The notes below the pieces were generated by a model. That model searched no databases. It was not told the DNA's origin and saw nothing but the letters and a program-made list of their open reading frames with translations. Below are positions 16,379-64,000 of a DNA stretch of 64,000 bases, piece after piece. Both the position numbers and the translations under genes were made by a program. This DNA is from Methyloceanibacter methanicus (lineage in GTDB: Bacteria > Pseudomonadota > Alphaproteobacteria > Rhizobiales > Methyloligellaceae), in NCBI RefSeq assembly GCF_001723285.1, contig NZ_LPWG01000010.1, positions 1 to 64,000 on the forward strand. Reading direction: 5' to 3'. Positions within the stretch are counted from its first letter, which is position 1. Every line of letters starts with the position of its first letter.

Positions 16379-17575
16379 TTAGAATGAATTAAATGAGGCG
16401 AACCTGCGGGCCAGTTCCGTACCTAAGAGTTCGTCGTACACGGCAAGCGTAGCCCGTTGCATCTCGCGCAAGGCGAAGTGGTCTTGCGCATGCGACCGTG
16501 CCCGCCGTGCAATTTCCGCAAGCCTCTGAGGCGACAGGGTTAACGCATTGGCCAGGCAGTCGGCCAGCGCGAGCGAGTCGGCGGCCGGGACAACCCAACC
16601 GGTCCTGCCGTCGCCAGCGTCTTCGGCGACCACGTTCTCGCTTGCCGCCCCCACGTCGGTGACAACGACCGGGCAGCCGGCCGCTTGGGACTCGATGCTG
16701 GTGCGTCCAAATGTCTCCGCCCGTGTTGACGCGACCACGGCGATGTCGGCCAAGGTGAAGGCCGCCGGAATGTCGTCGCAATGGCCAACGAGCCGCACGA
16801 TGCCGGCGAGGCCCGCTTCGGCGATCTCCGACTCGAGTTCGCCGCGATACTCGTCGCGCCCTTGGCTGTCGCCCGCGAAAACGAAGACCGCATCGCCGAG
16901 GCGCCCATCCGCCTTCAGCAGGCGTGCGGCCTCGATCGTATGGGCGTGCCCTTTCCAGCGCGTCAGCCGGGCGGCCTGCAGGACCACCCGCTGGCCCGGC
17001 GCGATACCCCAGGCGCGGCGCAGCCGTTCGATGCGGTCCGGCGCAATTCTGTCCGGATCGAAGGCCGACACGTCGAAGCCGCGATGGATCACGTGCAGAT
17101 GCTCCGGCGGCACCGGGTAGCGGCTACTGACCAGGCCGGCCGTGAAGCGCGAGTTCGCGATGACCCGGTCCCCGCGGGCCATGACGCTGTTGTACAGCGT
17201 CTTCAGCCGGCTCCGTCCGCTATAGGCCCCGTGATAGGTCGTCACGAACGGCCGGTTCGTGTGGCGGGCGGCAAGATACGCGCTCCAAGCCGGGGCGCGG
17301 CTGCGCGCGTGCAGCAGCGTGACGTTCCGCTCTTCGACAAGCCGCGTCAGGCGCCTTGCATTAGCGAGGACCGTCACGGGGTTCTTGCTGGCCACCGGGA
17401 GTTCGATGATCTCGCCGCCGGCCTCCTCAAGGGCGGTTGCCAACCGGCCCCCTTCGGTGGCAACGAGAGCCCTCGCCCCGGCTTGGGTGAGCGCCTCGGC
17501 AATTTCGACGGTCGATTGCTCGCTGCCTCCGGTTTCAAGCCGCGGCACAACCTGCAATATGGTCACGTCCGACAT
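16379..17575 (-). CDS. glycosyltransferase family 4 protein
   Basis: 398 residues with a two-Rossmann GT-B layout. The N-terminus LQVVPRLETGGSEQSTVEIA is the acceptor-side GGxE loop. The C-terminal half has the donor-site segments QAARLTRWKGH, FAGDSQGRDEYR and VVASTRAETFGRTSIESQAAGCPVV, with the E-x7-E motif of GT4 enzymes. It transfers a sugar from a nucleotide donor to a lipid-linked or cell-envelope acceptor in the cytoplasm; the donor sugar cannot be told. Divergent from the hydrolase gene at 17622, with only 46 bp between. Confidence 0.92.
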   Translation of the reverse strand: MSDVTILQVVPRLETGGSEQSTVEIAEALTQAGARALVATEGGRLATALEEAGGEIIELPVASKNPVTVLANARRLTRLVEERNVTLLHARSRAPAWSAYLAARHTNRPFVTTYHGAYSGRSRLKTLYNSVMARGDRVIANSRFTAGLVSSRYPVPPEHLHVIHRGFDVSAFDPDRIAPDRIERLRRAWGIAPGQRVVLQAARLTRWKGHAHTIEAARLLKADGRLGDAVFVFAGDSQGRDEYRGELESEIAEAGLAGIVRLVGHCDDIPAAFTLADIAVVASTRAETFGRTSIESQAAGCPVVVTDVGAASENVVAEDAGDGRTGWVVPAADSLALADCLANALTLSPQRLAEIARRARSHAQDHFALREMQRATLAVYDELLGTELARRFASFNSF

Positions 17576-21347: not shown

Positions 21348-22145
21348 ATGACCATAGAGCAGATCATCGTTATCGCGGTGGTTCAGGGAATCACGGAATT
21401 CCTGCCGATATCGTCGTCGGGTCACCTGGTCCTGGTTCCCTATCTGTTTCACTGGCCCGATCAGGGGCAGTTCGTCGACGTCATGGTGCATGTGGGCACC
21501 TTGTTCGCGATCCTGATCTACTTCTGGCGCGACGTCTGGAAGCTCCTTGTCGGGACGCTGGAGCTTTTCAAGGGCAAGGTGACCCATGACGGCAAGCTCG
21601 CCATGTACATCATGCTGGCCACGATACCCGCGGTCGCGTTCGGGCTCTTCCTCAAGAAGTTCGGCTTCGGCGATCTGGAGCGCAGCGTCACGGTCGTCGC
21701 CTGGAACACCGTGATCTACGGCATTCTCATGCTGGTCGCCGATATGATGGGCCGGCAGGAGAAGACCATCGAGAACATGACCCTGAAGAACGCGCTGATC
21801 ATCGGCGTGGCCCAGGCCCTGGCGCTCATTCCGGGCACCAGCCGCTCCGGCGTGACCATGACCGCCGCGCGGTTTCTCAACTATACGCGCCCCGATGCGG
21901 CCCGCTTCTCGTTCCTGCTGGGAATTCCGGCAATCGCGGGCGCGGGCGTGCTGACCGTGGGCGAAGCACTGGCCGCGGGCGATACGATCACAATGGATGC
22001 GGTCTATTGCGCGATCCTGACCTTCTTCGCAGGCCTTGCCGCCATCGCGTTCCTCATGGCTCTGGTCCGGCGCATCAGCTTCCTGCCCTTCGTGCTCTAC
22101 CGCATGGTCCTGGGTGGATTCCTGCTGTTCATGATCTACGGCTAG
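21348..22145 (+). CDS. uppP: undecaprenyl-diphosphatase
   Basis: 265 residues, full length. It recycles the lipid carrier for peptidoglycan and O-antigen by dephosphorylating undecaprenyl pyrophosphate at the inner membrane. Both family signatures are present: the EFLPISSSGH motif near residue 18 and PGTSRSGVTMTAA near residue 160. Seven or eight hydrophobic helices. Single gene, tail to tail with the NDUFA9-like gene. Confidence 0.97.
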   Translation: MTIEQIIVIAVVQGITEFLPISSSGHLVLVPYLFHWPDQGQFVDVMVHVGTLFAILIYFWRDVWKLLVGTLELFKGKVTHDGKLAMYIMLATIPAVAFGLFLKKFGFGDLERSVTVVAWNTVIYGILMLVADMMGRQEKTIENMTLKNALIIGVAQALALIPGTSRSGVTMTAARFLNYTRPDAARFSFLLGIPAIAGAGVLTVGEALAAGDTITMDAVYCAILTFFAGLAAIAFLMALVRRISFLPFVLYRMVLGGFLLFMIYG

Positions 22146-62743: not shown

Positions 62744-63562
62744 GAGTCGGAGGCATTGCGGGCACGCCAAAGCGTCCCGCAGCCGTTTGGCACGAGGCTT
62801 CGCCACACTCTCCCGACGTCTCAAAACTCAAGCCCACGAAGTGGGGACTTGCGGGGCGCTGGTCGGCCGCCGTCCGATTGTTTTGTGTGGGCAGCCTTCC
62901 GGCGCCCCGCATGGCGTTTGGACGGTGCTTCGCAAGAGAGCGAAACACGCCTCGACGCCGCAGCGATGTTTTAGAGCCTCATGCCGCGCGCTTATCTCCG
63001 GTGGCACAGACATACGCATGGAGATCGTATGCCTCACCCGACGGCCCACGCGTTACGTCGCAGGCGGGCGGAGTAGAGACCCCCGAGGCCGGTCCGTTAG
63101 CCGCGACGCGGTGGTCCGGGCTTGATCATTCACCTCGGGCCCTTCGGTACCGCGCCACCTCGGGCGCTGCGTCCCCCGCCCCGAGAGCAGACGGTCTGCA
63201 GCTCGCGTCCTCACGAACGAGGGATGGCTACATCGTAGCTCAGGTTTGGCGGGTGGGGATAAGGTTGACGTCCAGCTTGGCTGGTCGGTTGGCCCGGCCA
63301 TGGGTAGCAAGAGCACCAAGCTATCCCGTCCGCATCGCCAAAAAATTGTGATTACACACAGCATGTTACGCAACGGCCCCAATTTCGTCACATGCCGGCC
63401 CATCGGCAGCCAGATTAGACCGTACGCTTCCTATCGTAGCGTCTGAGTCGAGATGTTGTGGTTCATGAGGGCATTAACCCCCAGAGGGGTTGTCGGATTA
63501 GCACTCGCCGCCTCATACTGCTACGAGCGATTCGCCCCGCCTTTAAGGGGCGGGGCGCATAT
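62744..63562. other. gene-poor stretch before the variant tRNA
   Basis: About 820 bp. Some open frames of 70-160 codons exist on both strands, but none has a ribosome site, family motif or normal codon pattern, so I call none. Strong hairpins occur at about 63478-63493 (AACCCCCAGAGGGGTT) and 63535-63557 (GCCCCGCC/GGCGGGGC). I checked for tmRNA, RNase P RNA and SRP RNA landmarks and found none. Confidence 0.5.
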
Positions 63563-63680
63563 GGAGACGTGACTGAGTGGCTTAAGGTGCCCGGTTTAGG
63601 TCCGGGTGAGCCGTGTTCCCGTAAGCTGTGAGAGGTGGACCGGGGTAAAGGCTCCGGGGGTTCGAATCCCTCCGTCTCCG
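63563..63680 (+). tRNA. atypical class II tRNA, UAG anticodon, serine-like body
   Basis: Acceptor GGAGACG (63563-63569) pairs with CGTCTCC (63673-63679). The D-arm contains GAGTGGCTTAAGG. The anticodon stem CCCGG/CCGGG encloses TTTAGGT, giving anticodon UAG at 63597-63599 (reads CUA, Leu). The T-arm is GGGGG TTCGAAT CCCTC, the discriminator is G at 63680, and the next bases are CAC, so CCA is not encoded. The acceptor start GGAGA, the GAGTGG D-loop and G73 are serine-tRNA traits, while the ordinary tRNA-Leu of this genome (23283) looks different. The variable region is 49 nt (63607-63655), closed by GAGCC/GGCTC, more than twice the normal length. The cloverleaf is convincing; the charged amino acid is not known. 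Confidence 0.75.
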
Positions 63681-63693
63681 CACTCAAATCCTC

Positions 63694-63727
63694 GGGGGTG
63701 GTTCCTAGTGAGCCTCCCCCTTTTTTT
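63694..63727 (+). terminator. intrinsic terminator after the variant tRNA
   Basis: GGGGGTGG (63694-63701) pairs with CCTCCCCC (63713-63720) with one mismatch and is followed by seven T (63721-63727). Its place 14 bp after the tRNA shows the tRNA is transcribed as its own unit. Confidence 0.85.
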
Positions 63728-63776
63728 ATCCAAACACCTGCATGTGGCGGAGTCTAGGCAAACTGATTCGCTAGTT

Positions 63777-63796
63777 AATGTACATTAATGTACATT
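63777..63796. promoter_or_regulatory. double palindrome, probable operator of the RHH gene
   Basis: Two adjoining perfect 10-bp palindromes AATGTACATT at 63777-63786 and 63787-63796, within an AT-rich patch, 32 bp before the ribbon-helix-helix start at 63829. Ribbon-helix-helix proteins bind tandem short palindromes as paired dimers, so autoregulation is likely (inference). Confidence 0.7.
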
Positions 63797-63828
63797 GATA
63801 CGCAACGAGTAGTGCGTTGCGGGGTGGT

Positions 63829-64000
63829 ATGGCGCGTGAATTTAAGGGGTCGAGGCACTGCCTCGGCGACGACCTTGCCGCTGAACTAAAGACCCTATGC
63901 GAGGAACGGGGAATGACCGCGAGCAAGGTCATACGGATCGCTGTCAAAGAGTTCGTGGCACGGGAGAAAGCCAAGGACGCTAAGGCAAAGTCCAAATCCT
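63829..64000 (+). CDS. ribbon-helix-helix (CopG-type) DNA-binding protein, partial at right edge
   Basis: 57 residues are visible from the ATG at 63829, and the frame is open to the edge. It begins MAREFKGSRHCL, and LAAELKTLCEERGMTASKV-IRIAVKEFVA fits the helix A-turn-helix B pattern of CopG/ParD-like proteins, with the first strand before it. A Lys/Ala-rich tail follows. The gene uses CTA twice and ATA once in 57 codons, rare in this GC-rich chromosome, which suggests transfer. Upstream are the double palindrome, a terminator and the UAG-anticodon tRNA. The function (plasmid copy, antitoxin or phage regulator) cannot be told. Confidence 0.7.
   Translation, partial: MAREFKGSRHCLGDDLAAELKTLCEERGMTASKVIRIAVKEFVAREKAKDAKAKSKS

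Follow-up and report, generated by a model that had tools for sequence, protein, structure and literature searches.

A serine-type tRNA with anticodon UAG, probably acquired, in Methyloceanibacter methanicus

A tRNA gene in which a serine-type body is joined to a leucine anticodon was identified in Methyloceanibacter methanicus (GCF_001723285.1, contig NZ_LPWG01000010.1). The stretch analysed comprises positions 1-64,000 of the forward strand and is called the window below. The genome thus encodes a leucine-type and a serine-type tRNA, both with the anticodon UAG, and the serine-type gene, tRNA(UAG), was probably acquired horizontally, judging from its sequence and distribution. The best explanation, given a probability of about 0.58, is that of an intact acquired tRNA that would be charged with serine and could put serine in place of leucine at CUA codons. 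Expression, charging, decoding and status as accessory cargo of mobile DNA are the parts of this explanation that we infer. The following features lie at the right end of the window:

62762 to 63263, + strand: repeated element of about 500 nt with the common 3' end GGATAAG or close variants, which borders the slot
63533 to 63557, + strand: G+C-rich 11-bp hairpin in the presumed leader, 5 nt 5' of tRNA(UAG) (-22.0 kcal/mol)
63563 to 63680, + strand: 118-nt tRNA of serine type with anticodon UAG, variable region of 49 nt, G73, CCA not encoded
63694 to 63727, + strand: terminator-like hairpin followed by 7 T, 3' of tRNA(UAG) (-18.6 kcal/mol)
63778 to 63795, no strand assigned: pair of ATGTACAT palindromes with 10 bp between them, a candidate operator for the RHH gene
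63829 to 64002, + strand: RHH (CopG-type) gene of 57 codons, whose stop codon (64000-64002) ends 2 bases past the window

The cloverleaf described in an earlier note on this DNA is complete, with 7/5 acceptor and T arms, and the covariance search proposed there gave a score above threshold. RF00005 covers 63563-63680 (+) from end to end of the model with 45.4 bits (gathering score 29) and E values of 5.7e-8 for the 2 kb searched and 2.1e-8 for the whole genome; this is the second-weakest of 44 Rfam tRNA matches genome-wide and is still above the cut-off. Sequence reading and a script agree on a fully paired acceptor stem (7/7 bp), anticodon stem (5/5) and T stem (5/5, one G-U), and by eye the D stem consists of 3 bp (A-U, C-G, U-G). 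U8, A14, G15-C48 and G18G19 are standard, as are the bases of the T loop. Free folding recovered the acceptor arm, the anticodon arm and the variable arm, placed the T hairpin one base off and left out the D arm. The folding energy is ordinary (z -1.4; 20 of 200 shuffles as good). ARAGORN made no call of tRNA(UAG) at 63563-63680. In its default mode it also misses two long tRNAs of similar type in other genomes (loci L144 and L163, below), which it recovers with introns allowed, that of L163 with a wrong anticodon. A separate ARAGORN call in the window, tRNA-Ala(AGC) at 17254-17345, is missing from the Rfam tRNA matches of the genome and is probably false.

The oversized variable region and the missing CCA of the earlier note were likewise confirmed. 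Positions 44-48 span 49 nt, as against 18-21 nt in host tRNA-Ser (n=4) and 13-16 nt in host tRNA-Leu (n=5), and fold into a two-part arm with a 5-bp outer stem and an inner stem. The bases 3' of G73 are CAC. The terminator-like hairpin is not in the list of the terminator scan, presumably since a mismatch interrupts its stem. No sigma-70-like promoter for tRNA(UAG) was found by scanning. A match of sX4 in the region was rejected, as it spans the T arm and scores far under its cut-off.

The accessible part of PMC9976931 lists G73, C72, G2-C71, R4-Y69, C11-G24, G30-C40 and a large variable region for bacterial tRNA-Ser identity, and A73 among others for tRNA-Leu. As the earlier note had it, serine features are mixed with a leucine-type loop: all six base-level serine positions of that list, and the large variable region, are present in tRNA(UAG), and its anticodon loop TTTAGGT, including G37, is the same as in the ordinary tRNA-Leu(UAG) of the host, a second gene that the note had suggested looking for. 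G2-C71, G15/C48 and G73 are shared by tRNA(UAG) and the 4/4 host tRNA-Ser compared, and the 5/5 host tRNA-Leu compared have C2-G71, A15/T48 and A73; A73 and a leucine-type core are thus missing from tRNA(UAG). Its anticodon is likewise outside the UCN- or AGY-reading set of tRNA-Ser. Ten host class II tRNAs were compared at 51 positions, the first 26 bases plus the last 25. The closest is tRNA-Ser(GCU) with 45/51, followed by the other tRNA-Ser (40-41/51) and tRNA-Tyr(GUA) (38/51); tRNA-Leu genes reach 26-32/51, with tRNA-Leu(UAG) at 31/51. The acceptor stem is identical to that of tRNA-Ser(GCU) and 24 of 25 bases agree from the T arm through G73, whereas the anticodon, loop and variable region differ. 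A serine-type body with a leucine anticodon is thereby supported at the level of sequence.

Horizontal acquisition, suggested earlier as a transferred element, is likely. CCA is encoded by 43 of the 44 host tRNA genes found in this 93% complete genome, tRNA(UAG) being the sole exception, and a PolyA_pol-family gene (PF01743), as in CCA-adding enzymes, is present. No canonical tRNA-Leu(UAG) family with the same body turned up in relatives: no full-length relative was found in 60 related genomes or, with a 94-nt query lacking the T arm, in 396 genomes of the order (best other match 35 nt); the two sets overlap. Among the genomes sampled, only one copy of this body is known. A long-arm pattern matched only M. 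methanicus among 385 genomes of the class. The reversed pattern, used as a control, matched 2/385, so single pattern matches need a cloverleaf check. A pattern with a shorter gap, for which tRNA(UAG) itself is one base too long, matched 0/398 genomes of the phylum. No plasmid or phage record covered 80% of tRNA(UAG), the matches being T-arm pieces or parts of tRNA-Ser, and 63270-64000 had no match in plasmids. Integration at the tRNA gene itself was considered and rejected, as no direct repeat of its 3' end lies nearby.

tRNA(UAG) and the RHH gene occupy a slot of about 0.9 kb between the repeated element and an outer-membrane-type protein gene (stop near 64186). Neither a transposase nor a nuclease gene was seen there. 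With 431 nt of the repeat as query, 4 matches were obtained in its own genome, further ones in 10/16 other genomes of the genus, and short ones in 4 genomes from a second genus of the family. More than 50 rows were obtained, from which 17 copies besides that of the window were fetched. The 15 near full-length copies share the 3' end GGATAAG or close variants and diverge afterwards. Neighbouring genes of 13/17 copies (20 proteins; L340, L348, L349 and L351 left out) were scanned with Pfam, and PADLOC was run on 10 of the 20 proteins. Defence- or conflict-type genes follow the repeat on its 3' side in 6/17 of the other copies fetched. In the same genome these are thymidylate synthase with an aGPT-PPlase/ADDT-type protein and, at another copy, an OLD-like ATPase. 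Elsewhere, one copy is followed by genes for a Beta and a 'cll' protein and another by a ResIII/DEAD helicase gene, the called ORF of which overlaps the repeat; in G014 a TIR protein stands at the same genomic site, and the last case is an HD protein together with one resembling DarG. The remaining scanned loci carry unrecognised or ordinary families, e.g., DUF1826 and subtilase. Since neighbours occur in both orientations, the repeat is not simply their leader. The defence-type neighbours are context for the slot, not proof of function. The repeat itself has sharp ends and exchangeable middle modules, is multi-copy in the genus and had no convincing Rfam match, and in several copies its 3' end is followed by varied small genes of accessory or defence type; it could mark the edge of a cargo-carrying element of a new kind.

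The product of the RHH gene matches PF01402 (RHH_1) with 24.8 bits (cut-off 20.5). The earlier observation that this gene uses the rare codon CUA twice was borne out: CUA makes up 2/4 of its Leu codons (P 0.0017 at the local rate), against 27/1,589 Leu codons, or 1.65 per 1000 codons, in a rough ORF set (at least 250 aa, GC3 at least 0.7) from the window and 60 kb rightward. Five neighbouring genes, read separately, have CUA at 0/170 Leu codons. The sole alignable homolog (L113) has V and I at the two CUA positions, so leucine-like residues fit there. The hydrophobic placement of these codons, from which serine recoding had been argued against, does fit ordinary decoding of CUA as Leu and is silent on the charging of tRNA(UAG). 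Relatives of the RHH protein were absent from plasmids at E 0.01 and, by exact peptide patterns, from viral contigs, and the 396 genomes of the order gave three weak relatives and no close one. ATGTACAT occurs 3 times in 64 kb, with 0.15 expected from shuffling. None was found 5' of tRNA(UAG), and the third lies at 21603-21610 of the window, distant from the RHH gene.

Similar tRNAs were sought in 84,980 species and 2.9 million viral contigs by exact-pattern scanning for a serine-type D loop, TTAG (U33 to anticodon) and a GTTCGAATC T arm. The scans yielded 3 viral stretches and 47 genome stretches, 8 of the 47 bacterial. The 39 genome stretches with archaeal titles were dropped; 8 of the 39 have good cloverleaves, which by eye we take to be archaeal tRNA-Leu. 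L153 (Flavobacterium) and the viral L121 were also dropped, as the script found no good cloverleaf at the match. Eight other distinct non-archaeal serine-type tRNA(UAG) genes survived the cloverleaf check. They belong to a virus (L120), Paceibacterota (L133), Eremiobacterota (L138), Rhodospirillaceae (L144), Chloroflexota (L150), Afipia (L155), Phycisphaerales (L161) and Armatimonadetes (L163), and a contig classed as viral (L122) has the same 90 bases as the Afipia locus. G2-C71 and G15/C48 are present in 8/8, G73 in 6/8 (A73 in L138 and L144) and G30-C40 in 5/8; CCA is missing in 6/8, and the variable regions span 17-42 nt. When seven arms were compared under two scorings, the variable arm of the window tRNA resembled that of L144 (10/2000 and 2/2000 shuffles as good) and, less clearly, that of L150 (109/2000 and 8/2000), these counts being uncorrected for the number of comparisons.

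A transposase profile, for which the first three transposases found served as part of the input, was searched against 100 loci and matched four distinct ones (L120, L144, L161 and L163), all within the set of eight tRNAs, at 274, 164, 186 and 110 bp from the tRNA, respectively. Pfam DDE_Tnp_IS1595 confirmed three of these transposases with 133-147 bits and the fourth, cut off by a contig end, with 142 bits. The three cellular genomes (2.9-3.8 Mb) hold 1, 1 and 2 IS1595 copies and the 21-kb virus record holds 1. With so few copies per genome, closeness by chance is very unlikely in the cellular cases. No IS1595 transposase was matched in Afipia (L155) or L138 (the L133 genome was left out), the L150 genome has one partial match on a different contig, and in L138 an IS1-type transposase lies about 1 kb from the tRNA. 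For M. methanicus tRNA(UAG), no IS1595 transposase lies within 300 bp; PF12762 matches just once in the genome, on contig C13, and the surroundings fetched there (L212) are without a tRNA.

Carriage of these tRNAs as passengers of IS1595 elements was considered and rejected. No terminal repeats with matching 8-bp flanks enclose tRNA and transposase in L120, L144, L161 or L138, and a scan without the flank condition (L120, L144, L161) gave one weak pair, 14/18 bases around L120, with unmatched flanks. Two transposase copies in G791, one of which ends at a contig end, share 524 bp of transposase and one 35-bp piece, not the tRNA, and among L144-type copies nucleotide similarity ends near the transposase end, before the tRNA. 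As no enclosing ends were established, the tRNAs are termed adjacent to IS1595, not carried by it. In the reverse view, ARAGORN found a tRNA near the transposase in 3/49 IS1595 loci (L212-L260) and the cloverleaf script in 1/89 (L212-L300). Two further observations concern these surroundings. The viral contig L224 has, at 1854-1939, a tRNA with a leucine-type body, A73, CCA and the anticodon UGU (Thr), with an IS1595 transposase about 560 bp on. Beyond the L161 transposase, at about 7910-8010 of L307, an apparent 3' end of a tmRNA gene was recognised by eye; such 3' ends are common integration sites.

In the preferred explanation, tRNA(UAG) would probably be transcribed as its own unit, the host nucleotidyltransferase would add CCA, and SerRS, which does not read the anticodon, would charge it with serine. 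The seryl-tRNA would then enter the ribosome at CUA in competition with the normal Leu-tRNA(UAG) of the host, and serine would be placed there instead of leucine. The gene would belong to the accessory cargo of mobile DNA, and a mobile or defence cargo role is the best lead. If CUG were read as well, mistranslation could be severe; since the cell seems tolerant, the tRNA may be silent or poorly charged. A possible, if doubtful, alternative is that the gene is a relic, dead or dying, which came with a phage or island and whose product still folds but is not transcribed or not charged. The missing CCA, the lack of a promoter-like site and of relatives in the genus, the average folding energy and the weak D stem would suit a relic. 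A decaying gene is, however, expected to have lost pairs, whereas all stems and the standard core and T-loop bases are intact here and a terminator-like hairpin stands directly behind the gene.

A non-decoding RNA is unlikely, whether as a decoy, charged or uncharged, that might for example lure an anticodon nuclease, or as a regulator acting via the variable arm. The two-part hairpin of that arm and the conflict-type genes behind 6/17 of the other repeat copies would fit such a role, but many such roles have no need of the full working tRNA-Leu(UAG) loop that is copied here, and the slot is without a visible nuclease gene. That the tRNA is a leucine tRNA supplying the CUA codons of the acquired RHH gene, the earlier suggestion of an element bringing its own tRNA for rare codons, is highly improbable. 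The CUA excess in that gene speaks for it; however, G2-C71 and G73 point to serine, the accessible part of PMC9976931 gives G73 of E. coli tRNA-Ser as an antideterminant for LeuRS, the host already has a tRNA-Leu(UAG), and one gene of 57 codons is hardly in need of a tRNA. CUA occurs 1, 0 and 0 times in the transposase genes next to the L120, L144 and L161 tRNAs, so the tRNA is not there for translating the transposase. In a more speculative and improbable extension of serine decoding, a small mobile module, for toxin action or defence, would have tRNA(UAG) as its effector and the RHH repressor to hold it in check; once released, the seryl-tRNA would mistranslate Leu codons proteome-wide, and similar tRNAs would have been acquired repeatedly by IS1595- or repeat-linked cargo. 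If so, with CUA at two hydrophobic core positions of the RHH protein, the repressor itself would be damaged and the switch locked on.

Three known systems resemble the reading of an acquired, serine-charged tRNA. Allo-tRNAs are serine-type tRNAs with many anticodons and 8/4 or 9/3 arms, and in E. coli two of them insert Ser at Leu codons (PMC7609411, accessible part). The window gene shares serine identity, a non-serine anticodon and a long variable arm (49 nt here) with them and differs in its 7/5 arms. The kinship proposed in the earlier note thus holds for predicted function and fails for structure: tRNA(UAG) would work like allo-tRNAs without their fold and is not an allo-tRNA by structure. 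CUG-clade and Saccharomycopsis yeasts have a serine-type tRNA-CAG, in some species alongside a leucine-type tRNA-CAG (PMC8629427, in part). It too is a serine-type tRNA for a CUN leucine codon, whereas tRNA(UAG) is bacterial, concerns CUA and not CUG and is a single acquired gene, and no reassignment is claimed. The nev-tRNAs of nematodes, eukaryotic and conserved, are charged with Leu on Gly or Ile anticodons and likewise have a class II body mismatched to the anticodon. In the part of PMC4300185 available, these misacylatable tRNAs are mature and mistranslation was not detected, which counts against mistranslation by tRNA(UAG). Disagreement between isotype and anticodon is a flag known to tRNAscan-SE (PMC8450103, in part). 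No description of a 7/5 serine-type tRNA(UAG) in bacteria was recognised in the literature searched (IS1595 tRNA passengers, chimeric or mismatched tRNAs, allo-tRNAs with transposons), most subscription papers lying outside it. If serine does go in at a leucine codon beside the normal tRNA, this would be natural ambiguous decoding on accessory DNA. The recurrence beside IS1595 in Rhodospirillaceae, Phycisphaerales and Armatimonadetes MAGs and a virus suggests spread and retention for a reason, and is relevant to the purpose of allo-tRNAs.

Further viral scans for serine-type UAG tRNAs gave 2 and 11 stretches (8 of the 11 new), with no good cloverleaf among the new ones. A viral scan for long variable arms with any anticodon gave 41 stretches with 9 good cloverleaves, none UAG; their anticodons are UGA, CUA (2), UUA (2), GAA, ACA and GCU (2). 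A scan with the variable-arm motif gave 3 matches, which neither ARAGORN nor the script rated as serine-type tRNAs. Long variable arms and G73 were observed in viral class II tRNAs with the anticodons CUA (amber; L183, L190), UUA (ochre; L187, L200) and GAA (L191). A serine-type tRNA-like gene with G73 and CCA was also observed in genome G153 (L079, 1442-1525, - strand). Its anticodon arm is a hairpin with a GAAA tetraloop, so the gene seems to be without an anticodon.
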